The notes under the pieces are model-generated. The model was not told where the DNA came from. It saw only the letters and a program-made list of their open reading frames with translations, and ran no database searches. Positions 17,187 through 31,847 of a stretch of DNA of 64,000 bases are shown in pieces. A program made the translations under genes and the position numbers. Position 1 is the stretch's first letter. Each line of letters opens with the position of its first letter. This stretch comes from Variovorax sp. V93 (lineage in GTDB: Bacteria > Pseudomonadota > Gammaproteobacteria > Burkholderiales > Burkholderiaceae_C), in assembly GCF_041154485.1 (NCBI RefSeq), contig NZ_AP028669.1:3038001-3102000 (forward strand). Direction: 5' to 3'.

Positions 17187-18251
17187 ATGCCTCAAGACAA
17201 TGGGAACCATGGTTCCATCGCCCCCGAACGCGCCATCGAACGCACCGCCATCCTCTGGTGCAACCTGGGCTCGCCCGATGCCCCCACCGCGGCCGCCGTG
17301 CGGCCCTACCTGGCGGAGTTCCTGGGCGACCCGCGCGTGGTCGAGATTCCCAGGCTGCTCTGGGCGCTGATCCTTTACGGCATCATCCTGCGCGTGCGGC
17401 CCACCAAATCGGCCGCCAAGTACGCAAGCATCTGGATGGCCGAGGGTTCGCCGCTGAAGGTGTGGACCCGCAAGCAGGCCACGCTGCTCGCCGGTTGGCT
17501 CGGCGAGCGCGGCCACCGCGTGGCGGTGCACGACGCCATGCGCTACGCCAGTCCGTCGATCGCTTCGCGCCTCGATGCGCTGCAGGCCGAAGGCGCCACG
17601 CGCGTGCTGGTGCTGCAGGCCTATCCGCAGTATTCGGCCACCACCACGGCCAGCGTGATCGACGCGGTGAACGACTGGAGCCGCCGCCAGCGCCGCATAC
17701 CGGAGTTCCGCTTCGTCAACCAGTACCACGACGACCCGGCCTACATCGATGCGCTGGCACTCGGCATCGAAGCGCACTGGAAGCGCGAAGGCCGCGGCGA
17801 GCTGCTGCTGATGAGCTTCCACGGCATTCCGCTGCGCAACATCGCGCTCGGCGATCCCTACCAGGCCCAGTGCCTCGAAACCGCGCACCTGCTTGCGGCG
17901 CGGCTGGGCCTTGCGGACACCGGATACCGCGTGACCTTCCAGTCGCGTTTCGGCCGCGCCAGATGGCTCGAACCCTACACCGAGCCGACCCTGCGCGAGC
18001 TCGGCGCGAGCGGCGTGAAGCGCGTCGACGTGGCGTGCCCGGGCTTTCCGGCCGACTGCCTCGAGACGCTCGAAGAAATTGCCATGGAAGGCCGCGAAGC
18101 CTTCCTGCACGCGGGCGGCACAACCTTCAGCTACATCCCCTGCCTCAACGACAGCCCGGCGTGGATCACCGCGCTGGCGGGCATCGCCGAGCGCAACCTC
18201 GCGGGCTGGCCCACCCGGCCCGCCGCCAACGCTCAGAACTTGCCCAGGTAG
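17187..18251 (+). CDS. hemH: Ferrochelatase HemH
   Basis: HemH inserts Fe2+ into protoporphyrin IX, the last step of protoheme synthesis, at the inner face of the membrane. The 354-residue product contains the family landmarks [13 protein letters not shown] near the N-terminus, [12 protein letters not shown] with the metal-binding histidine, [19 protein letters not shown], and the C-terminal [15 protein letters not shown]. Length is normal for proteobacterial enzymes. Its last 19 bases overlap the convergent DUF1993 gene. Confidence 0.96.
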
Positions 18252-18739
18252 TCCATCTTGCCGATGGGCATGCCCTTGTGGCGCAGCACATCGTAGGCCG
18301 TGACCACGTGGAAGTAGAAATTGGGCAGCGCGAACTGCAGCAGGTAGCGCTGCGCCGTGAAATGCGCCTCGCCTTCACGCGCCTTGATGGTCACGGGGCG
18401 CTCCTCCTGGCCGTCGACCAGCGCGCGGTCCACGGTCGCGAGGAAGTCCTGCGTCTTCGCGATGCGGGCCAGCAGATCGTCGTAGGTCTTTTCCTCGTCG
18501 GGAAAGCTCGGCGCCGTGATGCCCGCGATGCGCGCCATGCCGAGCTTCGAGGCATCGCTCGCGCGCTGGATCTGGCCGGCCAGCGTGAGCATGTCCGGCG
18601 CGAGCCTCGCGTCCACCAGCGTTGCCGGATCGATGTCGTTGGCCCGGGCGTGCGCCAGGCTCTTCTCGAGCAGGTGGGTGAGCTGGCCGAGCCCGCGGGA
18701 GAAGACCGGCACGGAGAGGTCGTACATCGAAAGCGCCAT
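18233..18739 (-). CDS. DUF1993 family protein
   Basis: The 168-residue product begins [27 protein letters not shown] and ends [26 protein letters not shown]. These are the conserved start and end of the DUF1993 (DinB-like four-helix) family. No function is established for the family. The ATG at 18739 gives the standard N-terminus. It lies 53 bases downstream of the alpha/beta-hydrolase gene in the same direction and may be the last gene of the transporter operon, although no other link is visible. Confidence 0.88.
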
Positions 18740-18792
18740 GGCGTGGATCCTTGTGGTTGGAAATCGGCGGCGATTGTCTCGCCGACGCGCGC

Positions 18793-19680
18793 CTAGCGGC
18801 CGGCGGCCCGGATAAACCCTTCGATCAGCTGCAGTTGTTCGGGCACGTTGAGCGCGGGCGCGTGGCCGCACCCCTGGATTTCGACCACCTTCAGCAGCCC
18901 GGCGGCGCCCGGCCCCCGCTGCTGCATCTGCTGCGTCACCTCGGGCAGCACCAGGTCCGACTCGGCGCCGCGCAGGCACAGCACCGGCGTCTCGATCACG
19001 TCGTAGTGCGGCCAGATCAGGTAGTCGTTGTCGTGCGCGCTGAACTGCCGGACCATTGCCGGGTCGTAGTGCGGCGTCACGCGGCCATCGGGCAGGCGGC
19101 GCGTGGAGCTCTCGGTCAGGCGGCGCCACTGCGCATCGCTGAGCCAGCCATAGGGCTTGTAGACGGTGCGGAAGAATGCCTCCAGCTCGGCCACCGTGCC
19201 GAACGCGGGCGGCTCGCCGGCATAGGCGCGGATGCGCTCGATCGCCGCCTGCGCGAGTTGCGGCGCGTTGTCGTTGAGCGTGAGGCTCGCGATGCGCGCC
19301 TTCATGCGCGGCTCGAACAGGCCCGACGCGCAGACCGTGCCGATGGCACCGCCCATCGACGTGCCGACCCAGTGCACGCGGTCCAGGTGCAGTTCGTCGC
19401 ACAGCGCGCCGGCCAGGCGCGCATAGAACAAGAGCTGGTATTCCTCGTCGGGCAGCGGGCTCCACTGGCTCAGGCCCCGGCCGAGGGTGTCGGGGCAGAC
19501 CACGCGGAAGCCGCGCGCTGCAAAGTGCTGCGCCAGTTCGTCCATGTCGCGGCAGGTGCGCGCGAGGCCGTGCCAGGCAATGACCACCGGCGCATCGGGT
19601 GCGCCCCAGTCGAGCCAGTGGATTTCGCGGCCCGCAAGCTGCGCGTAGCGGGAAGACGGAACGAGGAGATCGTTGCTCAT
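18793..19680 (-). CDS. Alpha/beta-fold hydrolase
   Basis: The 295-residue cytoplasmic protein has an alpha/beta-hydrolase core. The oxyanion segment is VIAWHGLARTCRDMDELA. The nucleophile elbow is VGTSMGGAIG (Ser near residue 111). A late acid and GCGHAPALNVPE carry the catalytic histidine. No signal peptide is present. Its start codon overlaps the permease stop codon (ATGA), so it is translated as part of the ABC-transporter operon that also contains an extracellular PHB depolymerase. An esterase acting on imported 3-hydroxybutyrate oligomers is an attractive role, inferred only from context. Confidence 0.88.
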   Translation of the reverse strand: MSNDLLVPSSRYAQLAGREIHWLDWGAPDAPVVIAWHGLARTCRDMDELAQHFAARGFRVVCPDTLGRGLSQWSPLPDEEYQLLFYARLAGALCDELHLDRVHWVGTSMGGAIGTVCASGLFEPRMKARIASLTLNDNAPQLAQAAIERIRAYAGEPPAFGTVAELEAFFRTVYKPYGWLSDAQWRRLTESSTRRLPDGRVTPHYDPAMVRQFSAHDNDYLIWPHYDVIETPVLCLRGAESDLVLPEVTQQMQQRGPGAAGLLKVVEIQGCGHAPALNVPEQLQLIEGFIRAAGR

Positions 19681-20744
19681 CGTGCAGCCCTCGCCCTGAG
19701 CTTGCCCACGATGCCGGTGGGAAAGTAATAGACCGAGAGCACGAACAGCACGCCCAGCCACAGCAGCCAGCGGTCGGGCGACAACAGCGCCGCGAGCCAC
19801 GGCAGCCCGCTCGCGGCCTCGCTGCCGACGCGCAGCAGGTCCTGCAGGTAGCTTTGCGCCACCACGAACAGCACCGCGCCAATCGCCGCGCCGTAGATCG
19901 TTCCCATGCCGCCGATCACCACGATCAGCAGCACGTCGATCATGATCTCGAAGCTCAGCGAAGTGTCCGGCCCGTTGTAGCGCAGCCAGATCGCGAGCAT
20001 GGCGCCGGCCAGCGTGGCGAAGAGCGCCGACAGCACGGCCGCCGTGGTGCGGTACACCACCACGCGGTAGCCGATGGCCTCGGCGCGGAACTCGTTCTCG
20101 CGGATGGCCTGCAGCACGCGGCCGAAGGGCGAATTCACGATGCGCAGCAGCGCGAGCACCAGCACCACCGCCGCCACGAAGAGGAGGTAATAGCACAGCA
20201 GCCGTCCGTCGAGCGAGACGCCGAGGAAAGGCTCCTCGGCAAACTCGAAGCTCGGCGAGATCAGCTCGGGCAGCTTGAAGGTCAGGCCGTCCTCGCCGCC
20301 GGTGAAGTCCGACAGCTGCGAGGCCAGCGTCTGGAAGGCCGAGGCCACCGCCAGCGTGATCATCGCGAAGAAGATCGCGCGCACCCTGAGCGAGAACAGC
20401 CCGATCGCAAAGGAAAGCACCAGTGAGACCGCGAGCGACGCCGCGAGCCCGAGCAACACCGCGCCCCAGCTGGGCCCGAGCCGCGACGCCGAGATGGCGA
20501 TGCCGTAGGCGCCGATGCCGAAGAACATGGTGTGCGCGAAACTCACGATGCCGGTGTAGCCCAGCAGCAGGTCGAAGCTCGCGACCAGCACCACGAACAC
20601 CAGGATCTTGGCGGCCACGCTGAGCGCCTTGACGCCCGGAAAGATGAACGGCGCGAACGCCAGTGCGATGAACAGCGCCAGCAGCAGCAGCGCCAGCAGG
20701 CGGCTGCGGGGCATGTCGTTGGAGAGAAGTCGTTTCAGGAACAT
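19677..20744 (-). CDS. Branched-chain amino acid-type ABC transporter permease (LivM-like)
   Basis: This is an inner-membrane permease of the HAAT/LivM family. The 355-residue product has eight to ten hydrophobic segments and the family core FDLLLGYTGIVSFAHTMFFGIGAYG near residue 60. A late cytoplasmic loop (AIRENEFRAEAIGY) contacts the ATPase. It pairs with the LivH-like permease 13 bases upstream and overlaps the hydrolase gene downstream by four bases. A second in-frame ATG at 20714 (MPRSRLL) is possible. The substrate is not set by the sequence and may not be an amino acid, given the PHB depolymerase in the same operon. Confidence 0.93.
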   Translation of the reverse strand: MFLKRLLSNDMPRSRLLALLLLALFIALAFAPFIFPGVKALSVAAKILVFVVLVASFDLLLGYTGIVSFAHTMFFGIGAYGIAISASRLGPSWGAVLLGLAASLAVSLVLSFAIGLFSLRVRAIFFAMITLAVASAFQTLASQLSDFTGGEDGLTFKLPELISPSFEFAEEPFLGVSLDGRLLCYYLLFVAAVVLVLALLRIVNSPFGRVLQAIRENEFRAEAIGYRVVVYRTTAAVLSALFATLAGAMLAIWLRYNGPDTSLSFEIMIDVLLIVVIGGMGTIYGAAIGAVLFVVAQSYLQDLLRVGSEAASGLPWLAALLSPDRWLLWLGVLFVLSVYYFPTGIVGKLRARAAR

Positions 20745-20757
20745 GGCAGCTTCTTTC

Positions 20758-21738
20758 TCAACGATTCGCCACCGGGTACACGCCCTGCGGCCGCCACAGC
20801 AGCACCGCCACCATCAGCAGGATGCTCGCGAACTGCGTGAGCGTGGGCAGCAGGAAACCGATGTAGTTGGTCATGAGCCCCACCAGCAGCGCACCGATCA
20901 GCGCACCGCCCGTCGAGCCGAGCCCGCCGATGATGATCACGATGAAGATCAGCACGTTGACCTGCGCGCCCATCTGCGGCACCAGGTTCTGCTGGAACAG
21001 CCCCCACATCACGCCGCCCAGACCGGCCAGCGCGCTGCCGACCACGAACACGCCGACGAACAGCCGGCCGATGCGGTAGCCGAGCGACTCGACCATCTCG
21101 CGGTCCTGCACGCCAGCGCGGATCAAGAGGCCGATCTTGGTGCGCGCGAGCGTCCATGCGAGCAGGCCGAACACCACCGCGCCCACCGCCACCGCGAGCA
21201 GCCGGTACTTGCTGATGGCCGCGTCGGCCACGAACAGCGAGCCCCGCAGCGCCTCGGGCAGCGGCAGCGGAATCTGTGCCGGGCCCCAGATCACCTTGAT
21301 GAGCTCCTCGCCGATGATCATGCCGCCCATGGTGATCAGGATCTGCTTCAGGTGCTGCCCATACACCGGCCGCACGATGAAGCGCTCGAACGCGAGGCCG
21401 ACCGCGCCGGCCACCGCCATGGCGACCAGCATCGCAGGGAACACGGCGACGAGGTTGCGCCACAGTTCGCCCGAGCCCGTCCAGTCGCCCATCAGGCCGA
21501 GCACGCTGCTGGCGACAAAGGCGCCCAGGGCAATGAACACGCCGTGGCCGAAGTTGAGCACGTCCATCAGCCCGAACACCAGCGTGAGCCCCGAGGCGAT
21601 GATGAAGATGATCATGCCCATTGCCAGCCCCGCGACCGTGAGCGTGAGCCAGGTCGAGAACGAGCCCGTGAACGGCAGCGCGGCCAGCGCGAGGATCGGG
21701 GCCAGCAGCAGCGGCTTCCAGTCGAAGTCGAATTTCAT
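20758..21738 (-). CDS. Branched-chain amino acid-type ABC transporter permease (LivH-like)
   Basis: The 326-residue inner-membrane protein has the LivH landmarks GLTLVFGLMDVLNFGHGVFIALGAF near residue 50 and the EAA-like loop containing AGVQDREMVESLGY. Repeated hydrophobic segments end in LLWRPQGVYPVANR. The ATG at 21738 overlaps the stop codon of the LivF-like ATPase gene (ATGA). The frame is open further upstream, but the N-terminus MKFDFDWKPLLLAPIL is the natural start. It forms the translocation pore with the LivM-like subunit. Confidence 0.93.
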   Translation of the reverse strand: MKFDFDWKPLLLAPILALAALPFTGSFSTWLTLTVAGLAMGMIIFIIASGLTLVFGLMDVLNFGHGVFIALGAFVASSVLGLMGDWTGSGELWRNLVAVFPAMLVAMAVAGAVGLAFERFIVRPVYGQHLKQILITMGGMIIGEELIKVIWGPAQIPLPLPEALRGSLFVADAAISKYRLLAVAVGAVVFGLLAWTLARTKIGLLIRAGVQDREMVESLGYRIGRLFVGVFVVGSALAGLGGVMWGLFQQNLVPQMGAQVNVLIFIVIIIGGLGSTGGALIGALLVGLMTNYIGFLLPTLTQFASILLMVAVLLWRPQGVYPVANR

Positions 21739-22463
21739 AGAGCCAATCCAAGCAGCGATTGCTGCAGTTGCGCGTCGGCGGAGAACGCCGCCATCGAGCC
21801 GCTGTGCACCACGCGGCCGTTGTCCATCACCGCGACGGAGTCGCCCAGGCGCTGGGCGAAGTTGATGTTCTGCTCCACCAGCAGGATCGTCACGCCGCTG
21901 GCCTTGAGCTCGGCGAAGGCGTCGATCATGTTGTTGATCATCACGGGCGCGAGGCCCTTGCTGGGCTCGTCGATCAGCAGCAGTTCGCGCGGCTCGACGA
22001 TGGCGCGCGACACCGCCAGCATCTGCTTCTGCCCGCCCGAGAGCTTGCCGGCTGGATGGTTCCAGAACTTCTCGACCGCGGGAAAGAGCTTGAAGATCCA
22101 CTTGAGGCGCGTGTCGTCGATCTCTGCCGCGTTCCTGGCCCCGCGCGCGGCGAGCAGCATGTTCTCCTTCACGGTGAGGTCGGAGAAGATGCCCATGCTC
22201 TCGGGCACGTAGGCGATGCCGCGGCCGGCGATCTGCGGCGTCTGCATCGCGGTGATGTCGGTGTCACCGAAGCGCACCCTGCCCTGCGACGCATGCCACA
22301 GGCCCATGATGGTCCGCAGCGTGGTCGTCTTGCCCGCGCCGTTGCGGCCCAGCAGCATGGTGAGCTGGCCCCGCGGCACGGCCAGGTCGACGCCGTGGAG
22401 GATGTGGTACGCCCCGATGTGCGTGTGCACGCCTTCGAGCGTCAGCAGGTTCTGGGTGGTCAT
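21735..22463 (-). CDS. Branched-chain amino acid-type ABC transporter ATP-binding protein (LivF-like)
   Basis: This is a cytoplasmic ATPase of the HAAT group with 242 residues. Walker A is GRNGAGKTT, the signature is KLSGGQKQML, Walker B is LLLIDEPSKGLAP, and the H-loop region is ILLVEQNINFA. The LivF-type N-terminus MTTQNLLTLEGVHTHIG follows the ATG at 22463. The gene overlaps the LivH-like gene by four bases but is separated from the LivG-like ATPase gene by a 139-base gap filled by an inverted pair of REP-like palindromes. Confidence 0.94.
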   Translation of the reverse strand: MTTQNLLTLEGVHTHIGAYHILHGVDLAVPRGQLTMLLGRNGAGKTTTLRTIMGLWHASQGRVRFGDTDITAMQTPQIAGRGIAYVPESMGIFSDLTVKENMLLAARGARNAAEIDDTRLKWIFKLFPAVEKFWNHPAGKLSGGQKQMLAVSRAIVEPRELLLIDEPSKGLAPVMINNMIDAFAELKASGVTILLVEQNINFAQRLGDSVAVMDNGRVVHSGSMAAFSADAQLQQSLLGLAL

Positions 22464-22470
22464 CGGTCTT

Positions 22471-22583
22471 GCTCCTTCCCCTTCCGGGGGAAGGTTGGGA
22501 TGGGGGCAGACGGCGCCTGAAAGGCTGCCGCGGTTAGAGGGCCGCGAGCCCCCACCCCTGCCGTCCCCCGGCGGGGGAGGGAG
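22471..22583. repeat. REP-like palindrome pair (REPIN-type element)
   Basis: Two GC-rich copies of about 36 bases lie in inverted orientation, at 22471-22507 and 22548-22583. Each contains a small palindrome (CCCC around a CGGGGG core) followed by a conserved GGG-TGGGGGC tail. The reverse complement of the second copy matches most bases of the first, including the CTCC start and the TGGGGGC end. The arrangement resembles the REP doublets common between proteobacterial genes. It sits between livG-like and livF-like genes, where it could alter mRNA decay or termination. Confidence 0.7.
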
Positions 22584-22602
22584 AAATTCATCATCAACGC
22601 CT

Positions 22603-23370
22603 TCATGTGGTCGCCTCCTTCGCGATGCCGAGGTAAGCCTCCTGCACCACCGGCGAGGCAATCACCTCGGCCGGTTCGCCATCCGCCACCAGCGTGCCGT
22701 TGTGCAGCACGATGATGCGGTCCGCGAGCTCGCGCACCACGTCCATCTTGTGTTCGACCAGGAGGATGGTCTTGGTCTTGTCCTGCTTGAGCTTGCGGAT
22801 CAGGTCGAGGATGACCGGCGCCTCGGCCGCGTTCATGCCGGCCGTGGGTTCGTCGAACATGAAGACCTTGGGCTCGAGCGCCATCAGCAGCGCCACCTCG
22901 AGCTTGCGCTGGTCGCCGTGCGGCAGGCTGGCGACCGTCGCGTGCTCGCGCGACTTCAGCGCCACGTCGGCCAGGATCTGGTCGGCGCGTTCGGTCAGCC
23001 CCTTGTGGTCGCTCCAGATGCTCCACAGGTTGAGCCCGCGCCGGTGCGCGCCATCGCGCGTGGCCTGCACCGCCAGGCGCACGTTCTCCAGCACCGTGAG
23101 GTTCGGGAACAGGTTGGTGAGCTGGAAGGCCCGCCCCAGCCCCGCATGCGTGCGCGCCGACGGCGACAGCCCCGAGAGCAGTTGCCCGTCGAGCGACACC
23201 GTGCCCGCGCTCGCCTTGAGCTGGCCCGAGATCAGGTTGAAGTAGGTGGTCTTGCCCGCCCCGTTGGGGCCGACGATGGCCGTCAGCGTGCCCGGCGCAA
23301 ACGCGCAGCTCACGCTGTTGACGGCCACGTGCCCGCCGAAGCGGATGGTCAGGTCTTGCGTCTCAAGCAT
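22603..23370 (-). CDS. Branched-chain amino acid-type ABC transporter ATP-binding protein (LivG-like)
   Basis: The 255-residue cytoplasmic ATPase has Walker A GPNGAGKTT, the signature-equivalent SLPHGDQRKLEVAL, Walker B VFMFDEPTAGMN and the ILLVEHKMD H-loop. The LGRAFQ element and the C-terminal VIASPVVQEAYLG are typical of LivG. It starts 38 bases after the PHB depolymerase gene. Together with the LivF-like protein it would power the two permeases. Confidence 0.94.
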   Translation of the reverse strand: MLETQDLTIRFGGHVAVNSVSCAFAPGTLTAIVGPNGAGKTTYFNLISGQLKASAGTVSLDGQLLSGLSPSARTHAGLGRAFQLTNLFPNLTVLENVRLAVQATRDGAHRRGLNLWSIWSDHKGLTERADQILADVALKSREHATVASLPHGDQRKLEVALLMALEPKVFMFDEPTAGMNAAEAPVILDLIRKLKQDKTKTILLVEHKMDVVRELADRIIVLHNGTLVADGEPAEVIASPVVQEAYLGIAKEATT

Positions 23371-23408
23371 CGTGTGTCATTGCAAACAGGAAAAGGTGCA
23401 GATCGGCC

Positions 23409-24866
23409 TCAGCAGGTGCCGATCACGTAGTAATTGGGCCCGGTCTGCTTGAGCGTGGTGGTGACGTAGACGTTCCACAGGCCCATCGACTGGCCCGAGC
23501 CGTAGGCATAGGTGAGGCCCCACAGCGCGTAGGCACGCCCCGCCACGGTGTGCGCATAGTTGCTGGCGGTGTAGCAGGTACCGCCGCCACCGCTGCCGGC
23601 CAGGGTGGTGCCCGTGGCCGCTGTCGACATCGCGCCTTGCGCATTGCTGGCGTCCAGCGCCGCCACGGTCCAGCTGTAGGTGGTGGACGGGGCCAGGCCG
23701 GTGTCGGTGTAGTTGGTGCCGGCCACCGGCGCGGCGTTGACCTTGCTGCCGCCGCGGTAGACGTTGTAGCCGCTCGCACCCGTGACACCGGCCCAGCCGA
23801 CCACCATGCTGCTGCTGGTCGCGCCCGAGGTGCCCACGCCGGTCGGCGCCGGCAGCGACGAGCCGCCGCCGGAGCCGGTCACGCGGTCGACCATGGCCTT
23901 GAGTGCCGCCATCTGCGGGCCCGACTTCTTCGCGTAGTTCGCGTTGTCGTAGCCCCACCAGTCCCAGCAGCTGTTGGTGGCTGCGGTGCTGGTCTGCGGG
24001 TAGATCAGCACGATGTTGTTGGTGTCGGCCCAGCGGTTGTAGCCGGTCTTCTTCACGTACTGGTCGGCCACGTCGGTGTAGTTCTGCTTGCAGCCGTGCA
24101 GCACCAGGTGCACGCGGCACGATGCCGTGGTGCAGGCCTGCGGCACGTAGATCCAGCCGGTGGCGGCCACGCCGTGGCCGGTGATGAATTCCGACTGGTT
24201 GAACTCGGTGAAGGTACCGCCCAGCGTGCCGTTGTTGCGCGGGTTCAGCGGGCCGTAGAGCTGCTGCAGGATTTCGCCCGCCAGGTCGAAGCCGCAGTTG
24301 TTGATGTAGGGCGCGGCCGTGGTGCTGCAGGCGCCGCCGTAGTCGTCGGTGACCATCGCATGGCCGGCGCCGATGTTGTTCCTGTAGACCGTGTTGGCCG
24401 CGGGCACGAAGCTCTGGTAGTAGGTCTTGAGGTCGTCCATCACCGCGGGCTTGACGGTATTGTCCGAGGTGCCCGAGAACATGTACACCTTGGAGTTGCT
24501 CATGTTCGACACCGGGTCGATCGCACCGCTGGCGGCCCAGCTGTTGGTGGTGCTCACGAGCGTCGACACCGGAATGCTGCTGCCGTGCGCCATGCAGCGC
24601 CCGGTGGCATTGAGCACCGAGCCCTCGGCGCAGTAGTACGGCCCGCCGGCCACCACGCCGGCGCCGCGCTTGAAGGTGGCCGAATAGGCCACGTGCAATT
24701 GCACGGCCATGAAGCCGCCCGCCGAGAGGCCGGACACGCTCACCTCCGCCGGATTGGCGCCCAATGCCGGCAGCGGCACTGCCGCTGTCGCGGCCTGCCC
24801 CGCCGCCATCGTGATCGCCGCAACCGCGGCCCATCCCTTCCAGTTTTTCCATCGCATCGCTGCCAT
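23409..24866 (-). CDS. Extracellular poly(3-hydroxybutyrate) depolymerase
   Basis: This secreted serine esterase hydrolyses short-chain polyhydroxyalkanoate to 3-hydroxybutyrate and oligomers. The 485-residue product starts with a Sec signal (cleavage about residue 28, after AATA). A type-2 catalytic domain follows, with the lipase box close to the N-terminus: Ser48 (SGLSAGG), Asp135 (TSDNTV) and His169 (GAGHAMV) form the likely triad. A fibronectin-III linker spans about 335-425. The C-terminal substrate-binding domain (about 428-485) contains CYTASNYAHTVAGRA and ends in YYVIGTC. A glycine-serine hinge precedes each of the last two domains. The gene sits inside an ABC-transporter operon between binding protein and ATPase, which suggests uptake of the products. 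Confidence 0.92.
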   Translation of the reverse strand: MAAMRWKNWKGWAAVAAITMAAGQAATAAVPLPALGANPAEVSVSGLSAGGFMAVQLHVAYSATFKRGAGVVAGGPYYCAEGSVLNATGRCMAHGSSIPVSTLVSTTNSWAASGAIDPVSNMSNSKVYMFSGTSDNTVKPAVMDDLKTYYQSFVPAANTVYRNNIGAGHAMVTDDYGGACSTTAAPYINNCGFDLAGEILQQLYGPLNPRNNGTLGGTFTEFNQSEFITGHGVAATGWIYVPQACTTASCRVHLVLHGCKQNYTDVADQYVKKTGYNRWADTNNIVLIYPQTSTAATNSCWDWWGYDNANYAKKSGPQMAALKAMVDRVTGSGGGSSLPAPTGVGTSGATSSSMVVGWAGVTGASGYNVYRGGSKVNAAPVAGTNYTDTGLAPSTTYSWTVAALDASNAQGAMSTAATGTTLAGSGGGGTCYTASNYAHTVAGRAYALWGLTYAYGSGQSMGLWNVYVTTTLKQTGPNYYVIGTC

Positions 24867-25031
24867 CGCTGTCTCCTTCTGTTGTAGGTGTATCGAACGC
24901 TTGCTGGATTGCTGACGAATCGGCCGTTGGTTGCACCGCCCGCGCCTCGGCGGCGCAGGCTGGCGCTTCGCCCGGCGGCCACTCCGGGGCGAAGGGAGTG
25001 CGGCCTCAGGGCCGCGGCTGTGGATTGGCGC
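24867..25031 (-). other. Structured intercistronic region after the binding-protein gene
   Basis: The 165 bases between the binding-protein stop codon and the depolymerase start codon contain several adjacent GC-rich stems on the minus strand, for example GCGGCC/GGCCGC near 25000-25016, ACTCC/GGAGT near 24980 and GCCTGCGCC/GGCGCGGGC near 24950. None is followed by a T tract. The pattern would fit protection of the upstream binding-protein mRNA from 3' decay. I see no open frame or other gene here. Confidence 0.4.
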
Positions 25032-26225
25032 TCAGCGCTTGTTTTTGATGGGGATGTCCATCTCTTCGGGCTTGATCTCGCGCACCAGCTCCGGCACCCC
25101 CCAGGCGAAGGCCGGGTCGGCCTTGATCTTGAAGTGGTACATCGACTGCATCGCCTGGTGGTCTTCCTTGCGGAAGGTCATCTTGCCCTTGGGTGTGTCG
25201 AAGCTCATGCCTTCCATGGCGCCGATGAGTTTGTTGGTGCCGGTGTCGCCGCCCGTCTTCTTGAGCGCGGTGACCACTGCCATGGCGGCCGAGAAACCGC
25301 CGGCCGTGAAGAAGTCCGGCGGTGCCTTGAACTGCTTGTAGTGGGCCGACACCAGCGCCTCGTTGACCGGGTTCTTCGGGATGCCGAAGTAGTAGTAGGT
25401 GGCGCCTTCCATGCCTGGAAAACGCTTGTACGCGGTCATGGCCGGCAGGATATTGCCGCCCGTGGCCACGTCGATGTTGTAGCGCTTCTTCAGCTCGGCA
25501 TCGGCCAGCGCGTTGAACGGGGTGGTGGCGCCCGCCCACACCACGGCGATCACCTTGCGGCCGGGCTTGTCCTTCAGCGCGTCGACCATGCGCTGGATGC
25601 CCGCGGTGAAGTCGGTGGTGGCCGGCGGCAGGTATTCCTCGTGGACGATCTTGGTCTTCTTCAGCGCATCCTTGAACGCCTTCACGCCATCGCGGCCAAA
25701 AGCCCAGTCCTGCGCCAGCATGACCATGGAGATGTCGCTCGCGTCCGCGGCCACCGCATTCGAGATCGCATCCTGGCTCGAATTGCGGCCGGTGCGGAAG
25801 ATGTACTTGTTCCACTTGTCGCCGGTGATCGAATCGGCGACGGCCGGCTCCACGATCAGGATCTTCTTGTACTCCTCGGCCACCGGCAGCATGGCCAGGG
25901 CCACGCCCGAAGCCGTGGGGCCCACCGCCAGCGCGGCCTTGTCGTCGGAGTACGCGGCGGCCAGCAGCGACTTGCCGAGGTCGGGCTTGCCCTGGTCGTC
26001 CTTCTCGATGACCACGAGCTTCTTGCCGTTGACCATCATCGTGCCGCCAGTGGCGTAGTCCAGGCCCATCATCAGGCCGGTCTGGGTCTGCTTGCCATAG
26101 GCCTCGAGCGGCCCGGTCTTGCTGTAGATATGGGCGATGCGGATTTCGTTGGACTGGGCCCAGGCGGGTGCAGCGGTGACGCAGGCGGCGAGTGCGGCCA
26201 GGGCGACGAGGTGGCGACGGTTCAT
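25032..26225 (-). CDS. ABC transporter substrate-binding protein (branched-chain amino acid type)
   Basis: The periplasmic binding protein of the transporter has 397 residues after the ATG at 26225, which has AGGAGA six bases ahead. A Sec signal (MNRRHLVALAALAACVTAAPAWA) is followed by the Peripla_BP_6 fold, with IRIAHIYSKTGPLEAYGKQ at the start and NKYIFRTGRNSSQDA in the first lobe. The distance from paralogues that bind leucine cannot be judged here. The PHB depolymerase immediately downstream suggests a ligand such as 3-hydroxybutyrate or its oligomers, which is inference. It is the first gene of the operon behind a -24/-12 promoter. Confidence 0.92.
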   Translation of the reverse strand: MNRRHLVALAALAACVTAAPAWAQSNEIRIAHIYSKTGPLEAYGKQTQTGLMMGLDYATGGTMMVNGKKLVVIEKDDQGKPDLGKSLLAAAYSDDKAALAVGPTASGVALAMLPVAEEYKKILIVEPAVADSITGDKWNKYIFRTGRNSSQDAISNAVAADASDISMVMLAQDWAFGRDGVKAFKDALKKTKIVHEEYLPPATTDFTAGIQRMVDALKDKPGRKVIAVVWAGATTPFNALADAELKKRYNIDVATGGNILPAMTAYKRFPGMEGATYYYFGIPKNPVNEALVSAHYKQFKAPPDFFTAGGFSAAMAVVTALKKTGGDTGTNKLIGAMEGMSFDTPKGKMTFRKEDHQAMQSMYHFKIKADPAFAWGVPELVREIKPEEMDIPIKNKR

Positions 26226-26256
26226 TCTGTGTCTCCTGAAATAGGTGACTGAATAT

Positions 26257-26272
26257 TGCACACTTCGTGCCA
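26257..26272 (-). promoter_or_regulatory. Sigma-54 (-24/-12) promoter of the transporter/depolymerase operon
   Basis: On the minus strand the sequence TGGCACGAAGTGTGCA carries the -24 GG and -12 GC dinucleotides with exactly ten bases between. It matches the TGGCACG-N4-TTGCA consensus in all but one position. The predicted start is near 26246, about 20 bases before the binding-protein ATG and its ribosome site. A sigma-54-dependent activator gene lies 467 bases upstream in the same orientation. Confidence 0.8.
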
Positions 26273-26326
26273 TCTGCTAACCCCTTGATACCAAACGCTT
26301 CTTCATTCGAAGGAAGCGCCAGTCGA

Positions 26327-26350
26327 CTGAATTCAGAACACTTGAAGTGT
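26327..26350. promoter_or_regulatory. Dyad upstream activator site candidate
   Basis: Two adjoining inverted repeats occur here: CTGAATTCAG (26327-26336, perfect) and ACACTTGAAGTGT (26338-26350, perfect around a central base). A further CTGAATT follows at 26351. They lie about 70-90 bases upstream of the -12 element, a normal distance for a sigma-54 activator binding site. The C-terminal Fis-type helix-turn-helix of the regulator at 26692-28236 is the likely reader. Confidence 0.55.
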
Positions 26351-26369
26351 CTGAATTTCAATCAATTGT

Positions 26370-26645
26370 CTATTTGTCGGTCAGGGTTTTCTCGGAGATT
26401 TGGCGCTCGGCGATCCAGCGCTGGAACTGGCGCTCGGCCTGCATGCGGAACTCGTTGCGCGCGTGGTTGCAGGCGGCGTGCGCAAGCCGGCGGTGCTTCT
26501 GCGAGCGGACGCCGCCGAGCGTCGAATCGATCAGGTGTTCGATGGTCGCGGACTCGGGCCTGCCGTGCGGCTCGTCGAAGTCCATGGCCAGGCCGCACCA
26601 ATGACAATTGGGGCCGAAGGTGGAACGCAGGGCGCGCACGCTCAT
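26370..26645 (-). CDS. HNH endonuclease-like protein
   Basis: The 91-residue product has the core of an HNH/McrA-type nuclease. A CHWCG zinc knuckle lies near residue 14, an IEHLIDSTLGG segment carries the first histidine near residue 36, and LAHAACNHARN supplies the second CxxH-type half near residues 55-65. The whole protein is little more than the domain, as in many free-standing small HNH proteins. It lies between the sigma-54 regulator and the transporter operon, all on the minus strand. No intron, phage or toxin context is visible, so its role is unknown. Confidence 0.8.
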   Translation of the reverse strand: MSVRALRSTFGPNCHWCGLAMDFDEPHGRPESATIEHLIDSTLGGVRSQKHRRLAHAACNHARNEFRMQAERQFQRWIAERQISEKTLTDK

Positions 26646-26691
26646 GGGCTCGCTCGCTTCAGGCCGATGCAGCGGGCGAGGCTCGAAGGCT

Positions 26692-28236
26692 TCACGCCGG
26701 CCGCTCCTGGTTCGTCATGCGCTCGTAGAGCGTGGCACGTGAAATGCCGAGCAGCCTCGACGTCGCCAGCTTGTTGCCACCGGTGGCCGCAAGCGCCGCG
26801 GCGATCGCCTTGCGCTCCAGTTCGGCGACCTGCTGCGCGAGCGGCCGCAGCAGCAGCGCCTCTTCGTCGGCATCGTGCGCGCTCTGCAGGGTGGCGGGCA
26901 GCTCGATCTGCTCCAGCCCCGCTTCGCGCAGGATGCGTTCGAGTTGCGCGGCATCGATGCGCTGCGAGTCGCTGCGCATCGTGACCTGCTCCAGCACGTT
27001 GCGCAGTTCGCGGATGTTGCCGCGCCAGTGCTGGCCGGCCAGCAGCGCGAGCGCATCGGGCGTGATCTCGGGCGGCGCCTCGCCGCTGCGTAGCGCCATA
27101 TCCTCCCCCAGCGCCTCGACCAGCGCCGGAATGTCGCTGCGCCGCTCGCGCAGCGGCGGCACGCGCAGCGGCAGCACGTTGAGGCGGTAGTAGAGGTCTT
27201 CGCGGAACTGGCCGCGGCGCACCAGCTCGGGCAGGTCGCGCGAGGTGGCGGCGATCACGCGCGCATCGAAGGGCACGAGCTTGTTGGAGCCCAGCGGCTC
27301 GATCTCGCCCTCCTGCAATGCGCGCAGCAGCTTGGCCTGCAGGCCGAGCGGCATGTCGCCGATCTCGTCGAGAAAGAGGCTGCCGCCGTCGGCCAGCTTG
27401 AACTTGCCTTCGCGCCCTCGCCTGTCGGCGCCCGTGAAGGCACCGGGCGCGAAGCCGAAGAACTCGGCCTCCAGCAATGTGTCGGGCACGGCCGCAATGT
27501 TGACGCTGACGAACTGCCCCTTGGCGCGCGCCGAGGCCGCATGGATCGCATGCGCGAGCAGTTCCTTGCCGGTGCCGGTTTCGCCCAGCAGCAGCACCGG
27601 GCTCGCGGACTGCGCGGCGCGGCGCGCATGGCGCTTCACCTCCACCGCGGCCGGGCTGCTGCCGATGAAGCTGGCAAAGGTGTACTTGGAGCGGCGCTGC
27701 CCGTCGGCCGCATGCTGGTAGAGCGGGTTGTTGCGCTGGCTTGCAAGCTCGCGACGCGCATCGTCGAGGTCGCGCTGCAGCAGCGCGAACTTGCTGATGA
27801 GCGGCTGCAGCGTGGTCTCGGGCTGGTCGAACAGCACGATGCCGATGGCACCGATGACTTCTCCCGCCTCGCCCTCGCGCCCGCCGCTCTCGGCGCGCAG
27901 CGGAATGCGGCTGACCACGAAGGTACCCGCCTTGTTGTTGAGCAGGTCGACCAGGATCGGCTCGCCGGTCTCGAGCACGCGCCGCATCTGCGTGTTGGGA
28001 ATGACGTCCTCGACCATGTGGCCCATGAACTGGTCGATCGACGAAAAGCCCAGTGCCGGCAGGAAGCGGCGATAGCCTTCGTTGACCCACACGATGCGAC
28101 CGCTGCGGTCCACCAGGAACATGCCCTGGCTGATGCTCGAGAACAGATGGAACATCGAGCGCGCGGCCAGCGCAAGGATGCCTTCGGCATCCAGAGGCAG
28201 GGCGGGCGATGCGGCGGCGGGCGGAACGGCGGACAT
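26692..28236 (-). CDS. Sigma-54-dependent transcriptional activator (PAS-AAA+-Fis)
   Basis: The 514-residue protein is an enhancer-binding activator of RpoN-dependent promoters. A PAS sensor domain spans about residues 25-135 (GMFLVDRSGRIVWVNEGYRRF). The central AAA+ domain has Walker A GETGTGKE, the sigma-54 contact motif GAFTGA and Walker B GGSLFLDEIG. The C-terminal Fis-type helix-turn-helix is GNKLATSRLLGISRATLYERM. It lacks a receiver domain, so it senses a ligand or redox state directly rather than by phosphorylation. The start at 28236 gives MSAVPPAAASP. The -24/-12 promoter and dyad just downstream make the PHB depolymerase/ABC operon its probable target. Confidence 0.94.
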   Translation of the reverse strand: MSAVPPAAASPALPLDAEGILALAARSMFHLFSSISQGMFLVDRSGRIVWVNEGYRRFLPALGFSSIDQFMGHMVEDVIPNTQMRRVLETGEPILVDLLNNKAGTFVVSRIPLRAESGGREGEAGEVIGAIGIVLFDQPETTLQPLISKFALLQRDLDDARRELASQRNNPLYQHAADGQRRSKYTFASFIGSSPAAVEVKRHARRAAQSASPVLLLGETGTGKELLAHAIHAASARAKGQFVSVNIAAVPDTLLEAEFFGFAPGAFTGADRRGREGKFKLADGGSLFLDEIGDMPLGLQAKLLRALQEGEIEPLGSNKLVPFDARVIAATSRDLPELVRRGQFREDLYYRLNVLPLRVPPLRERRSDIPALVEALGEDMALRSGEAPPEITPDALALLAGQHWRGNIRELRNVLEQVTMRSDSQRIDAAQLERILREAGLEQIELPATLQSAHDADEEALLLRPLAQQVAELERKAIAAALAATGGNKLATSRLLGISRATLYERMTNQERPA

Positions 28237-28365
28237 GGGCGGATCGTAGCGCGCCTCATTCGGCCGCTCGCCGGGCCGCTTGCGGTGGCATCGATGCAGC
28301 CGGCGGAAATGCGCCAAAAGCGCATTCACCGCCAATGCGAAGAAAGCCCTCATCGCGCCATAAGT

Positions 28366-28383
28366 AAATCAAACGTTTGATTT
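28366..28383. promoter_or_regulatory. Perfect 18-base palindrome, probable TetR/CerR operator
   Basis: AAATCAAACGTTTGATTT is its own reverse complement over all 18 bases. It ends 22 bases before the ATG of the TetR-family regulator that heads the RND operon. Such a site in front of a TetR-family gene is the classical autoregulatory operator. I could not place a convincing -35/-10 pair around it. Confidence 0.75.
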
Positions 28384-28405
28384 GCTGCATGGTCTAATCG
28401 CCTGC

Positions 28406-29128
28406 ATGAGCGCCTCCGCCCTGCAAGCACTTTCCGCCCGCGCGCCGCGCAGCGACGGCGTCGAAGCACGCCAGCGCCTGCTCTACGCCGCCCTGGCGCT
28501 GTTCGCCGCCAACGGCTACGCCAAGACCTCGACCCGCGAGATCGCGCGCGCCGCGGGCGTGAACATCTCGGCCATCAGCTATTACTTCGGCGACAAGGCC
28601 GGCTTGTATGCCGCCACCTTCGGCGAGCCGATGGGCGGCAACGCGGGCGATTTCATCTCGCTCTATGCCGCGCCCGAGCTGCCGCTGGAAGAGGCGCTGC
28701 GGATCTTCTTCACGCGCATGATCGAGCCCCTCAAGCAGGGAGAGATCGTGCGCCAGTGCATCCAGCTGCACCTGCGCGAAATGCTCGAGCCGACCAGCCA
28801 GTGGGCCGAGGAGATGGAGCGCGACATCAAGGGCCCGCACAATGCCATTGCCCGCGTGCTGTGCCGGCGCCTGGGCCTCGCGCGGCCCGACGACGACGTG
28901 CACCGGCTGAGCTTTGCCATCACCGGCCTGGCGATGCAGCTTTTCGTGAGCCAGGACCTTGTCGAGGCGATACGCCCCTCCCTGCTGAACACGCCGCGCA
29001 GCGTGGACACCTGGGCCCAGCGCCTCACGGGCTATGCCGTCGCGCTGGTCGAGGCCGAAGCCCTGCGCCGCCAAACCGCCGCCAGGCCCGCGGCCGCGCC
29101 TGCCCGTTCAGGGAGAAAGAAGACATGA
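28406..29128 (+). CDS. TetR/AcrR-family regulator, CerR-like
   Basis: The 240-residue repressor has an N-terminal TetR helix-turn-helix (residues about 24-70: ARQRLLYAALALFAANGYAKTSTREIA, then GVNISAISYYFGDKAGLYAA) and a C-terminal domain of the CerR/DUF1956 type (LREMLEPTSQWAEEME). The start at 28406 is the ATG; a TTG 24 bases earlier lies inside the palindrome and is less likely. Its stop codon overlaps the ATG of the outer-membrane factor gene, so regulator and pump form one coupled operon, probably autorepressed through the palindrome at 28366-28383. Confidence 0.92.
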   Translation: MSASALQALSARAPRSDGVEARQRLLYAALALFAANGYAKTSTREIARAAGVNISAISYYFGDKAGLYAATFGEPMGGNAGDFISLYAAPELPLEEALRIFFTRMIEPLKQGEIVRQCIQLHLREMLEPTSQWAEEMERDIKGPHNAIARVLCRRLGLARPDDDVHRLSFAITGLAMQLFVSQDLVEAIRPSLLNTPRSVDTWAQRLTGYAVALVEAEALRRQTAARPAAAPARSGRKKT

Positions 29129-30621
29129 GACGACTCCGATCGATTGCCGCCCTCTGCCTGACACTGGGCCTTGGTCTCGGCCTTGCGGGCTGCGGCCTGA
29201 CGCGTCCGCCAGCCACGGTCGAGGCGCCCTTCCCCGCGCAATGGCACGCGCCGCTGCCGCACGGCGGTTCGCTGGCGTCGCTCGCCGACTGGTGGCGCCA
29301 GCTCGACGATCCGCTGCTGGTCGAGCTGATCGCCGCGGCCGAGGCCGCAAGCCCCACTCTCGCAAGCGCCGCGGCGCGCGTGGCCGAGGCGCGTTCCACG
29401 CGCGTGCAGGCCGGCGCGGCGCTGCTGCCCAACCTGGACGCCACGGCCTCGGCGAGCCGCGGCGTCTCGGGCTCCTCCTTCGGCGCCGGCGGCGCGGCTT
29501 CCTCGTCCAGCAGCAGTACGGCCGCCGTCGCGCCGCTGACCACGCTGCAGGCCGGCCTGCAGTCCAAGTGGGAAATCGACCTGTTCGGCCGCCTGCGCGC
29601 CGACCGCGATTCGGCCGAGCAGAAGTTCAACAGCGCCACTGCCAAGTGGCACGACGCGCGCGTGGCCGTCGCGGCCGAAACGGCCAACGCCTACTTCGCC
29701 GAACGCGCCTGCCAGCAGCAGCTGCGCGTGGCCGAGTCCGATGCCAGATCGCGCGGCGAAACCGCGCGCCTCACCGACCTGTCGGCGCGCGCCGGCTTCA
29801 CCGCGCCGGCCGATGCAGCGCTCGCGCGCGCCAGTGCCTCGGACGCCTCGGGTCGCCTGACCCAGCAGCGCGCCCAATGCGCGGTTCAGCGCAAGGCGCT
29901 GGTGGCGCTCAGTGGCATCGACGAGCCCACGCTTGAACGCAAGCTCGCCGCCTCGCCCGCGCAGCGCACGCTGCCCGCGATCGGCAGCATCGCCAGCGTG
30001 CCGGCCGAGGCGATCTCGCAGCGGCCCGACGTGTACGCGGCTGAGCTCGGCGTGGCGTCGGCCAGCGCCGATGTGGGCTCCGCCGAGGCCGAGCGCTATC
30101 CCAAGCTCAGCATCTCGGGCTCGATCGGCCGCATGCAGATCCGCACCAGCGGCTTCCGCGAATCGCTCGACACCTGGACCATCGGCCCGGTCTCGCTCAC
30201 GGTGCCGCTGCTCGACGGCGGCGCCCGCGCGGCCAACAGCGACGCGGCCAAGGCGCGCTACACCGAAGCCGTGTCGCTCTACCGCGCGAACGTTCGGCAG
30301 GCGGTACGCGAGGTGGAGGAAGCGCTGGTCAACCTCGACGCCACCGACGCGCGCGCGGCCGATGCCGACGCCGCGGTGAGCAACTACCAGGCCTCGTTCG
30401 ATGCCACCCAGGCGCGCTACCAGAGCGGCCTGGCCAGCCTGTTCGAGCTCGAGGATTCGCGCCGCACGCTCTTCGCCGCGCAGACCGCCCGCGTCTCGCT
30501 GCAGCGCGAACGCACCGAAGCCTGGGTGGCGCTCTACCGCTCGATGGGCGGCGGCTGGGCCCGCCCCGAATCGCCCTCAATGACTTCCAACCCGGCCGCC
30601 AAGGTCGCGACGTCGCCATGA
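29125..30621 (+). CDS. RND efflux outer-membrane factor (NodT/OprM family lipoprotein)
   Basis: This is the outer-membrane channel subunit of a tripartite efflux pump. The 498-residue product begins with a lipoprotein signal ending in GLAGC. It carries two OEP repeats rich in long helices, with landmarks DWWRQLDDPLLVELI, WEIDLFGRLRADRDSAEQ and the second-repeat IGPVSLTVPLLDGGARAA. A serine-rich run near residue 130 is a loop variant. ATGA overlaps join it to the upstream regulator and the downstream adaptor gene. Confidence 0.93.
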   Translation: MRRLRSIAALCLTLGLGLGLAGCGLTRPPATVEAPFPAQWHAPLPHGGSLASLADWWRQLDDPLLVELIAAAEAASPTLASAAARVAEARSTRVQAGAALLPNLDATASASRGVSGSSFGAGGAASSSSSSTAAVAPLTTLQAGLQSKWEIDLFGRLRADRDSAEQKFNSATAKWHDARVAVAAETANAYFAERACQQQLRVAESDARSRGETARLTDLSARAGFTAPADAALARASASDASGRLTQQRAQCAVQRKALVALSGIDEPTLERKLAASPAQRTLPAIGSIASVPAEAISQRPDVYAAELGVASASADVGSAEAERYPKLSISGSIGRMQIRTSGFRESLDTWTIGPVSLTVPLLDGGARAANSDAAKARYTEAVSLYRANVRQAVREVEEALVNLDATDARAADADAAVSNYQASFDATQARYQSGLASLFELEDSRRTLFAAQTARVSLQRERTEAWVALYRSMGGGWARPESPSMTSNPAAKVATSP

Positions 30622-31847
30622 AAAGAATCAAACGCTCCACCCTTGCCATCGCGCTGCTGGCGCTGGTCGTCATCGTCGCCGCGGCCGTGTGGCTGACCCG
30701 CAAGCCCGCGAACGAAGCCGGCACGCCGGCCGCCACCAAGGGCAAGGCGGGTGCGCCGGCCGCTCGCCCGACGCTGACGGTCACCGTCGCCAAGGCCGAG
30801 CCCACCGAACTCGCGCTCACGCTTGCGGCCAACGGCAATGTGGCGGCCTGGCAGGAGGCCAGCGTGGGCTCCGAATCCAGCGGCCTCAAGCTCGCCGAAG
30901 TGCGCGTGAACGTGGGCGACGTGGTGAAGAAGGGCCAGCTGCTGGCCGTGTTCTCGCCCGAGACGGTGCGCGCGGACATCGCGCAATCGCGCGCCTCGCT
31001 CGCCGAGGCCAGGGCCACCGCGGCCGACGCCGCGGGCAACGCGGCGCGCGCGCGCACGCTGCAGGCCACCGGCGCACTGAGCCAGCAGCAGATCAACCAG
31101 TACCAGACGGCCGAGCAGACCGCCAAGGCGCGCGTCGAGGCCGCCGAAGCCGTGCTCGCGGCGCAGGAAGTGCGCGGCCGCAACACGCAGGTGCTGGCGC
31201 CCGACGACGGCGTGATCTCCTCGCGCACCGCCACGGTCGGCAGCGTGGTGCCCGCCGGCACCGAGCTGTTCCGCCTGATCCGCCAGGGCCGGCTCGAATG
31301 GCGCGCCGAAGTCACCTCGGCCGAGCTCAGCCGCATTGCCGTGGGCACCACCGCCTTCGTGGTCAGCGCGAGCGGCGCGCAGGTGCGCGGCAAGGTGCGC
31401 AGCATCGCGCCCACCGTCGATCCGCAGACCCGCGCGGCGCTGGTCTATGTCGACCTGCCGAACGTGCAGCAGAACACCGGCATCAAGGCCGGCATGTTCG
31501 CGCGCGGCGACTTCGAGTTGGGGCGCAGCTCCGCGCCCACCGTGCCGCAGAGTTCCATTGTTCCGCGCGACGGCTTCAACAACGTCTTCGTGCTGCAGCC
31601 CGACAACCGCGTGGTGCAGCTCAAGGTGCAGACCGGCCGCCGCGTCGGCGAGCGCGTGGAAATCACCAGCGCATTGCCCGAAGGCGCGCAGATCGTGGTG
31701 CAGGGCGCCGGCTTCCTGAACGACGGCGACCTGGTGCGCGTGGTGGCGCCGCCGGCCCCTGCGGCCGCGGGCGCCCGGCCTGCCGCAGCGCCGGCCTCGG
31801 CCGCCGCAGGCGGCCAGGGCAACGGCGAAGCGAGGGCACGCCCATGA
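30618..31847 (+). CDS. RND efflux periplasmic adaptor (MFP family)
   Basis: The 409-residue adaptor is anchored by an N-terminal membrane segment (residues about 8-26) rather than a lipobox. It shows the lipoyl-like half-motifs (VGSESSGLKLAEVRVNVGDVVKKGQLLAVF), a helical hairpin and the closing half ALEVRGRN-like segment TQVLAPDDGVISSRTATVGSVV, then beta-barrel domains. An Ala/Pro-rich tail ends the protein. It overlaps its neighbours by four bases on both sides. Confidence 0.93.
   Translation: MKRIKRSTLAIALLALVVIVAAAVWLTRKPANEAGTPAATKGKAGAPAARPTLTVTVAKAEPTELALTLAANGNVAAWQEASVGSESSGLKLAEVRVNVGDVVKKGQLLAVFSPETVRADIAQSRASLAEARATAADAAGNAARARTLQATGALSQQQINQYQTAEQTAKARVEAAEAVLAAQEVRGRNTQVLAPDDGVISSRTATVGSVVPAGTELFRLIRQGRLEWRAEVTSAELSRIAVGTTAFVVSASGAQVRGKVRSIAPTVDPQTRAALVYVDLPNVQQNTGIKAGMFARGDFELGRSSAPTVPQSSIVPRDGFNNVFVLQPDNRVVQLKVQTGRRVGERVEITSALPEGAQIVVQGAGFLNDGDLVRVVAPPAPAAAGARPAAAPASAAAGGQGNGEARARP

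Follow-up and report, generated by a model that had tools for sequence, protein, structure and literature searches.

A putative sigma-54-controlled operon joining a PHB depolymerase to a HAAT-type ABC importer in Variovorax sp. V93 and its relatives

Locus organization

The window analysed here is a stretch of 64,000 nucleotides from Variovorax sp. V93 (genome of 6.74 Mb in two contigs), and the subject of this paper is a run of genes on its minus strand in which a type-2 short-chain polyhydroxyalkanoate (PHA) depolymerase, an enzyme acting on poly(3-hydroxybutyrate) (PHB), is embedded in an operon for an ABC importer of the hydrophobic amino acid transporter (HAAT) type. The order is sigma-54-dependent activator, small HNH-like open reading frame (ORF), binding protein, depolymerase, LivG-, LivF-, LivH- and LivM-like subunits, alpha/beta hydrolase and DUF1993 protein. 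An earlier note on this DNA had reported the order from activator to hydrolase on one strand; the ORF positions bear this out, and the arrangement recurs in other genomes far above chance. We consider it probable that the genes are a sigma-54-controlled unit for using external PHB, with a transporter that imports PHB breakdown products, either 3-hydroxybutyrate (3HB), short oligomers or both, a ligand suggested by the gene context.

All features below are on the minus strand of the window. The activator (26692-28236; 514 aa) combines PAS, AAA+ and Fis-type helix-turn-helix (HTH) domains (PF00158, 219 bits; PF02954; PF08448), and its ORF opens at 28353, ahead of the assigned start at 28236. The HAAT-type periplasmic binding protein (25032-26225; PF13458, 176.9 bits) has a signal-like N-terminus and is followed by the depolymerase (23409-24866), which ends 38 bases before the LivG-like ATPase (22603-23370; PF00005, PF12399). 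The LivF-like ATPase (21735-22463; PF00005) overlaps the LivH-like permease (20758-21738; PF02653) by four bases. The LivM-like permease (19677-20744; PF02653) is joined in the same way to the alpha/beta hydrolase (18793-19680; PF00561), a four-base overlap that had been noticed earlier and is confirmed by these positions. The families of a HAAT importer, PF13458 once and PF00005 and PF02653 twice each, are thus all found in one gene run, which would be co-transcribed.

Co-location in related genomes

Co-location was measured in 250 genomes drawn from the family, with LivG taken at E<=1e-75 (10 candidates scored per genome) and the depolymerase at E<=1e-40; same-strand neighbours only were counted, and the related genomes are not independent. 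A LivG ortholog is present in 137 of the 250. In these genomes LivG begins 183-763 bases after the catalytic-domain match, on the same strand, for 34 of 41 type-2 depolymerases, and 43 of 57 genes of PF10605 (3HB-oligomer hydrolase, 3HBOH) lie on the same strand 2827-3359 bases after LivG. At least one of these enzymes is at the operon in 59 of the 137 genomes, and both are in 18. The survey's 62 depolymerase rows include 3 under the curated cut-off, and its 85 PF10605 rows (>=683 bits) were used after 13 weak or fragmentary rows had been left out, three of which belong to one broken copy that lies downstream of LivG in genome G085. The link between depolymerase and transporter is not due to chance.

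Gene order was also mapped in 80 named loci, the best 80 of 571 encoding stretches, with titles mostly of Comamonadaceae. Here too the order that the earlier note had proposed to look for in other genomes recurs, and all four transporter genes are complete in 70 loci. The depolymerase is present in 27 of the 80, PF10605 in 17 and at least one of them in 35. Between binding protein and LivG lie 1628-1912 bases in the 27 loci with a depolymerase and 3-304 bases in 50 without; three loci show no LivG. Eight loci, all titled Acidovorax, run activator, binding protein, depolymerase, LivG, LivF, LivH, LivM, PF10605 and a second binding protein, after which the stretch ends; in four relatives (L325-L328) PF10605 and the second binding protein are followed by the hydrolase. 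A second HAAT binding protein within the operon is seen in 9 of the 80 loci, these eight and L146 (L124:17717-19105; L146:14285-15427), which suggests two ligands for one transporter.

Within the genus, the binding protein was matched in all 36 other Variovorax genomes searched (partially in two). Gene mapping places the depolymerase between binding protein and LivG in 19 of the 33 that could be judged; three genomes (G001, G022 and G029) fall outside this count through contig ends or fragmentation. In 23 genomes of the genus, V93 included, there are 18 type-2 depolymerases over the cut-off: 14 at the operon, one in a second operon of G020, and three elsewhere that have no LivGFHM neighbours. 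The second G020 operon (L322, G020 C2:194500-214000) is paralogous, 49-73% identical; it has a type-2 depolymerase of its own, and its activator is divergently oriented. A search of 37 genomes, of which 23 belong to the genus, found PF10605 in none, and its control genomes gave no match either; three genus genomes were again negative in the family-wide search, in which PF10605 matched 86 of 250 genomes.

The depolymerase

The depolymerase scores 398.6 bits against the curated type-2 model NF050059 (cut-off 280) and matches the solved enzyme 2d80 across the catalytic domain (E 1.7e-67). Its triad, Ser48, Asp135 and His169, can be read directly and aligns with residues of 2d80 that we take to be catalytic; 2d81 has Ala at the position of the catalytic Ser. 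Model, alignment and triad therefore agree with the earlier description of a type-2 PHB depolymerase carrying these three residues, and its secretion is predicted. By eye, a signal-like N-terminus precedes the catalytic domain, which is followed by an fn3-like stretch (under the Pfam cut-off) and a C-terminal extension. The protein shares with the extracellular type-2 short-chain-length PHA depolymerases 2d80 and 2d81 a full-length catalytic domain, the Ser-Asp-His triad and a signal-like N-terminus; what sets the V93 gene apart is its place inside an ABC-importer operon downstream of a sigma-54-type promoter.

In a tree of 76 depolymerases two deep clades contain the operon members, and one of these clades has a branch of 1.07. 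The label operon or non-operon changes 7 times on this tree, compared with 13.9 times when labels are shuffled, and at least 5 changes are forced by well-supported branches. The tree holds the 76 different rows of 86 and takes in 29 of 61 non-V93 depolymerase rows, so that non-operon enzymes are under-sampled, and its long branches are flagged. Another HAAT binding protein of V93 has a PHB-esterase-like gene (C1:4185570) a few kb away; since other ORFs intervene, it was not counted as a further pairing.

Regulation

A sigma-54 promoter-like (-24/-12) site, TGGCACGAAGTGTGCA, lies at 26272-26257 and begins 47 bases ahead of the binding-protein start; a further ATG for this protein, at 26273, abuts it. 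Together with the AAA+ sigma-54 interaction domain and HTH of the activator encoded upstream, this points to sigma-54 control. The site is conserved: 72 of 79 upstream regions (V93 and 78 of the 80 named loci) score >=11 at positions -84 to -43, compared with none of 79 shuffled regions. A search for sigma-70-like sites in 17800-28500 found none; shuffles of this stretch give 0.7. At 26356-26331 an imperfect palindrome, with half-site TTCAGRCA/TGYCTGAA, is a candidate binding site for the activator (an upstream activating sequence, UAS). This half-site is present in 56 of the 79 regions and in 1 of 15 others (14 loci outside the family and the second G020 operon), that is, in 57 of 94 overall, against a mean of 2.5 in shuffles. 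In 68 of the 76 named loci with enough upstream sequence, the activator is found no more than 2.5 kb ahead of the binding protein. The earlier claim that the operon has its own sigma-54 activator is supported by the conserved promoter and upstream half-sites, as far as sequence patterns can support it. Across the V93 genome the promoter pattern has three matches: the operon, one before an aldehyde-dehydrogenase-like ORF that adjoins an activator-like ORF (by eye), and one followed on its strand by nothing recognisable as a gene.

The alpha/beta hydrolase and the oligomer hydrolases

The alpha/beta hydrolase has no obvious signal peptide and is a candidate oligoester hydrolase of the cytoplasm; Ser108 (in GTSMG) and His273 are among its invariant columns. 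It follows LivM in all 42 named loci that extend more than 4 kb beyond LivM. Against the model for intracellular short-chain-length PHA depolymerases (NF050089) it scores 31.9 bits, where the cut-off is 300, and its structural model finds generic relatives, with varied closest neighbours. The source names given for it are uninformative among the 120 matches listed.

Four PF10605 members that were checked score 957-1093 bits, the two from named loci 1013 and 1053. In two of the 80 named loci, both Ramlibacter (L103 and L121), the PF10605 slot is filled by an unrelated carboxylesterase (PF00135, about 300 bits). The N-termini of both enzymes look lipoprotein-like by eye. A study of Ralstonia eutropha names two 3HB-oligomer hydrolases, PhaY1 and PhaY2, the latter being H16_A1335 (PMC3430594). 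The present system resembles that pair in the PF10605 enzyme of the orthologous operon in the 17 named loci, and differs from it in Variovorax, where PF10605 was not found in any of 25 genomes searched. We presume that PhaY1 is a PF10605 member, and a likeness of PhaY2 to the cytoplasmic hydrolase is our guess.

The transporter and its ligand

The importer has the subunit types of Escherichia coli LivJ/LivK-LivHMGF; unlike that system, its subunit order is G-F-H-M, its scores fall below the Liv cut-offs and the amino-binding residues appear not to be kept. Measured in bits against the cut-off, the Liv models give 196/362 for LivG, 191/441 for LivF, 68.5/379 for LivH, 90/366 for LivM and 64.9/477 for the binding protein, and the Urt models 200/304 for UrtD, 212/286 for UrtE, 158/250 for UrtB and 122/296 for UrtC, so that the LivG-like ATPase lies under both the LivG and the UrtD cut-offs. 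In LivK the amino group is bound by Thr102, Asp121 and Glu226. These residues are not kept in 134 family rows, and the columns shift in a second alignment. Because such a loss is common among HAAT proteins and the alignments disagree on the columns, we give this argument little weight; by this alignment-based comparison the binding protein is simply not LivJ/LivK-like.

The nearest structure to the binding protein, matched through a model with a mean predicted local distance difference test score (pLDDT) of 86.4, is RPA4397 of Rhodopseudomonas palustris (3n0x/3nnd; E 2e-167), which has the same fold and 69% identity over 373 columns of the structural match. Next come HAAT-fold proteins titled with hydroxybenzoate or probably vanillate (the title is cut), and named amino-acid binders rank lower. 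Those aromatic-acid structures (4ey3, 4eyg, 4evq, 4evs and 4f06) share the fold and, by their titles, hold non-amino-acid carboxylates, but are 21-27% identical to the V93 protein. As the binding-pocket comparison carries little weight, the substrate assignment rests on gene context. The earlier note held that hydroxyacids would be a new assignment for HAAT transporters. The substrate would indeed be new; since HAAT proteins solved with aromatic acids or urea exist, it would not be a break with the family.

Independent pairings and loci outside the family

One locus repeats the pairing of a HAAT operon with polyester enzymes in a non-orthologous setting. In L282 (genome G251; L282:4808-17602, one strand) the HAAT operon lies between PF10605 on one side and, on the other, a chemoreceptor of the methyl-accepting chemotaxis protein (MCP) type, a type-2 depolymerase and an activator 56% identical to that of V93. 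Identities to the V93 subunits are 39% for LivG, 38% for LivF, 29% for LivH and 36% for LivM, and the binding protein is of another subfamily. The chemoreceptor possibly serves chemotaxis to PHB products. L263, a relative from the same taxonomic order, has an acyl-CoA synthetase between LivM and PF10605, and in L277 and L278 depolymerase and PF10605 are adjacent, with no transporter recognised. In another relative from that taxonomic order (L264:308-3978) the genes ahead of the orthologous transporter encode a TonB-dependent receptor, which may carry the substrate across the outer membrane, and an alpha/beta hydrolase. In another class of the phylum (L270:2713-6472) the genes after the ortholog encode a hydrolase, a TetR-like protein, an enoyl-CoA hydratase and an acyl-CoA synthetase, neighbours hinting at a non-amino-acid carboxylate as ligand.

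Discussion

The proposed mechanism begins with a signal that would turn on the PAS-type activator, which would bind the palindromic sites upstream of the binding-protein gene and start transcription at the -24/-12 promoter. The depolymerase would be secreted and cut PHB to 3HB and oligomers; small products would enter the periplasm, be captured by the binding protein and be imported by the LivFGHM-like ABC transporter. A cytoplasmic alpha/beta hydrolase would then cleave the remaining ester bonds, yielding 3HB for central metabolism. In relatives, a lipoprotein-like PF10605 oligomer hydrolase or carboxylesterase encoded in the operon may add a cutting step outside the cytoplasm. In its fullest form, to which we give slightly less than even odds, the locus would be a polyester utilisation locus, widespread in Comamonadaceae, in which a dedicated ABC importer takes up oligoesters (3HB dimers and trimers), the final cleavage is cytoplasmic and the secreted enzymes are modular. 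Oligosaccharide uptake loci offer an analogy for such import with final cytoplasmic cleavage.

Several observations weigh against a unit for using PHB. In 14 of the 33 judged Variovorax genomes the operon lacks the depolymerase, so the enzyme's presence at the same position in close relatives, set beforehand as a test, was found in part; it is therefore an accessory, an optional module of a wider conserved unit of activator, binding protein, transporter and hydrolase. Neither enzyme is at the operon in 78 of the 137 LivG genomes (contig ends may hide some), so that transporter and hydrolase also live without polyester enzymes. Conversely, genomes lacking this LivG account for 21 of 62 depolymerases and 28 of 85 PF10605 genes, and a further 7 and 14, respectively, lie away from the operon in genomes that have it. 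In 13 of 14 loci outside the family, the 10-17 kb examined contain neither depolymerase nor PF10605; their binding proteins are 53-67% identical, 12 have a LivGFHM run and one the binding protein alone, three have the activator (48%), two the hydrolase (47-51%), and a further locus matches the hydrolase more weakly (31%). No solved PHA enzyme is a close match to the V93 hydrolase, which is also far under the intracellular PHA depolymerase cut-off. Among 30 of the 39 other V93 HAAT proteins over the cut-off, 28 also lack the acidic residue, so its loss is not specific. The palindrome pattern is matched nowhere in the V93 genome, its own site included, where the spacing differs, and the single other plausible promoter in that genome has an activator-like neighbour of its own. 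The catabolic unit of release, import and cytoplasmic finishing that the earlier note described keeps the support of its gene context, with the HNH-like gene placed outside it and the depolymerase made accessory.

Within the PHB reading we rank import of 3HB with short oligomers first and of the monomer only second. In the latter case, which is possible but somewhat less likely, oligomers would be cut outside the cytoplasm and the hydrolase would have another job, on a lactone or thioester. The lipoprotein-like starts of the 3HBOH and carboxylesterase favour cutting before import, and the varied structural neighbours of the hydrolase fit as well; set against them, the hydrolase is constant in the 42 judged loci even where the operon has no extracytoplasmic oligomer hydrolase, as in V93, which favours import of ester-bearing species.

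It is unlikely that the transporter carries some other small carboxylate or hydroxy ester, such as an aromatic or branched hydroxyacid, and that the polyester enzymes joined it through a shared signal or another polyester. The 13 outside loci, in the stretches fetched, have the transporter and partly the activator and hydrolase without polyester enzymes, the neighbours in L270 would suit such a ligand, and among HAAT structures whose ligand is named, the nearest contain hydroxybenzoate and probably vanillate. Against this, three kinds of apparently exported ester-cleaving enzymes recur at fixed slots, two of them in named PHB or 3HB families, and the non-orthologous operon of L282 has the same partners. 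An ordinary importer of branched-chain amino acids that gained a depolymerase by chance is very improbable. The family names are in its favour; against it stand the four subunits under the LivFGHM and UrtBCDE cut-offs, the loss (a weak point) of the amino-group-binding residues of LivJ/LivK, and the 34/41 co-location in view of V93's 40 HAAT binding proteins and one type-2 depolymerase over their cut-offs, on which we reject chance insertion.

Returning to a PHB-product importer, each component is already known, the type-2 depolymerases and PF10605 enzymes as well as the HAAT importers; for the joint operon and the importer that it implies, no description was found in the open-licence literature. 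The accessible parts of two 2026 reviews (PMC13373117, PMC13372988) mention no importer of 3HB or of 3HB oligomers; the first names importers of terephthalate and adipate, and the second places Variovorax, Comamonas and Roseateles among likely consumers of soluble PHA products. Uptake of PHB breakdown products looks like a missing step, for which the operon is a specific and testable candidate. Its presence may also mark PHB users, as well as scavengers that have retained the importer but lack the depolymerase, and if the proposal is true the annotation of many "branched-chain amino acid" transporters would be corrected.

Neighbouring genes and other observations

The HNH-like ORF (26370-26645; 91 aa), which the earlier note had placed in the operon as an HNH protein, is present, but it resembles HNH proteins by eye only and has no Pfam match at E<=0.001. 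Its place is upstream of the promoter-like site, and it occurs in 9 of the 80 named loci, each of them titled Variovorax and carrying a depolymerase; we rejected it as a member of the unit on these grounds, and it is probably a passenger.

The closest mapped named locus is that of Variovorax beijingensis (L075), with 98-100% identity per gene and 90% in the binding protein. The binding-protein gene contains a tract of about 360 bases (25386-25746) with 67-80% identity, compared with 95-100% on its flanks; the best match found for it is L074, at 90-92%. Judged from these identities the tract likely reflects recombination. It would span about residues 160-280, within the second lobe, and an exchange of alleles here could therefore affect ligand binding.

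Divergent from the activator, at 28382-31847, are a CecR-type TetR regulator and genes that look efflux-like by eye. At the other end, the DUF1993 gene (18233-18739; PF09351, 199 bits) is a probable downstream passenger; it comes after the hydrolase in 23 of the 80 named loci, whose titles are those of Variovorax, Xenophilus or unclassified metagenome-assembled genomes.

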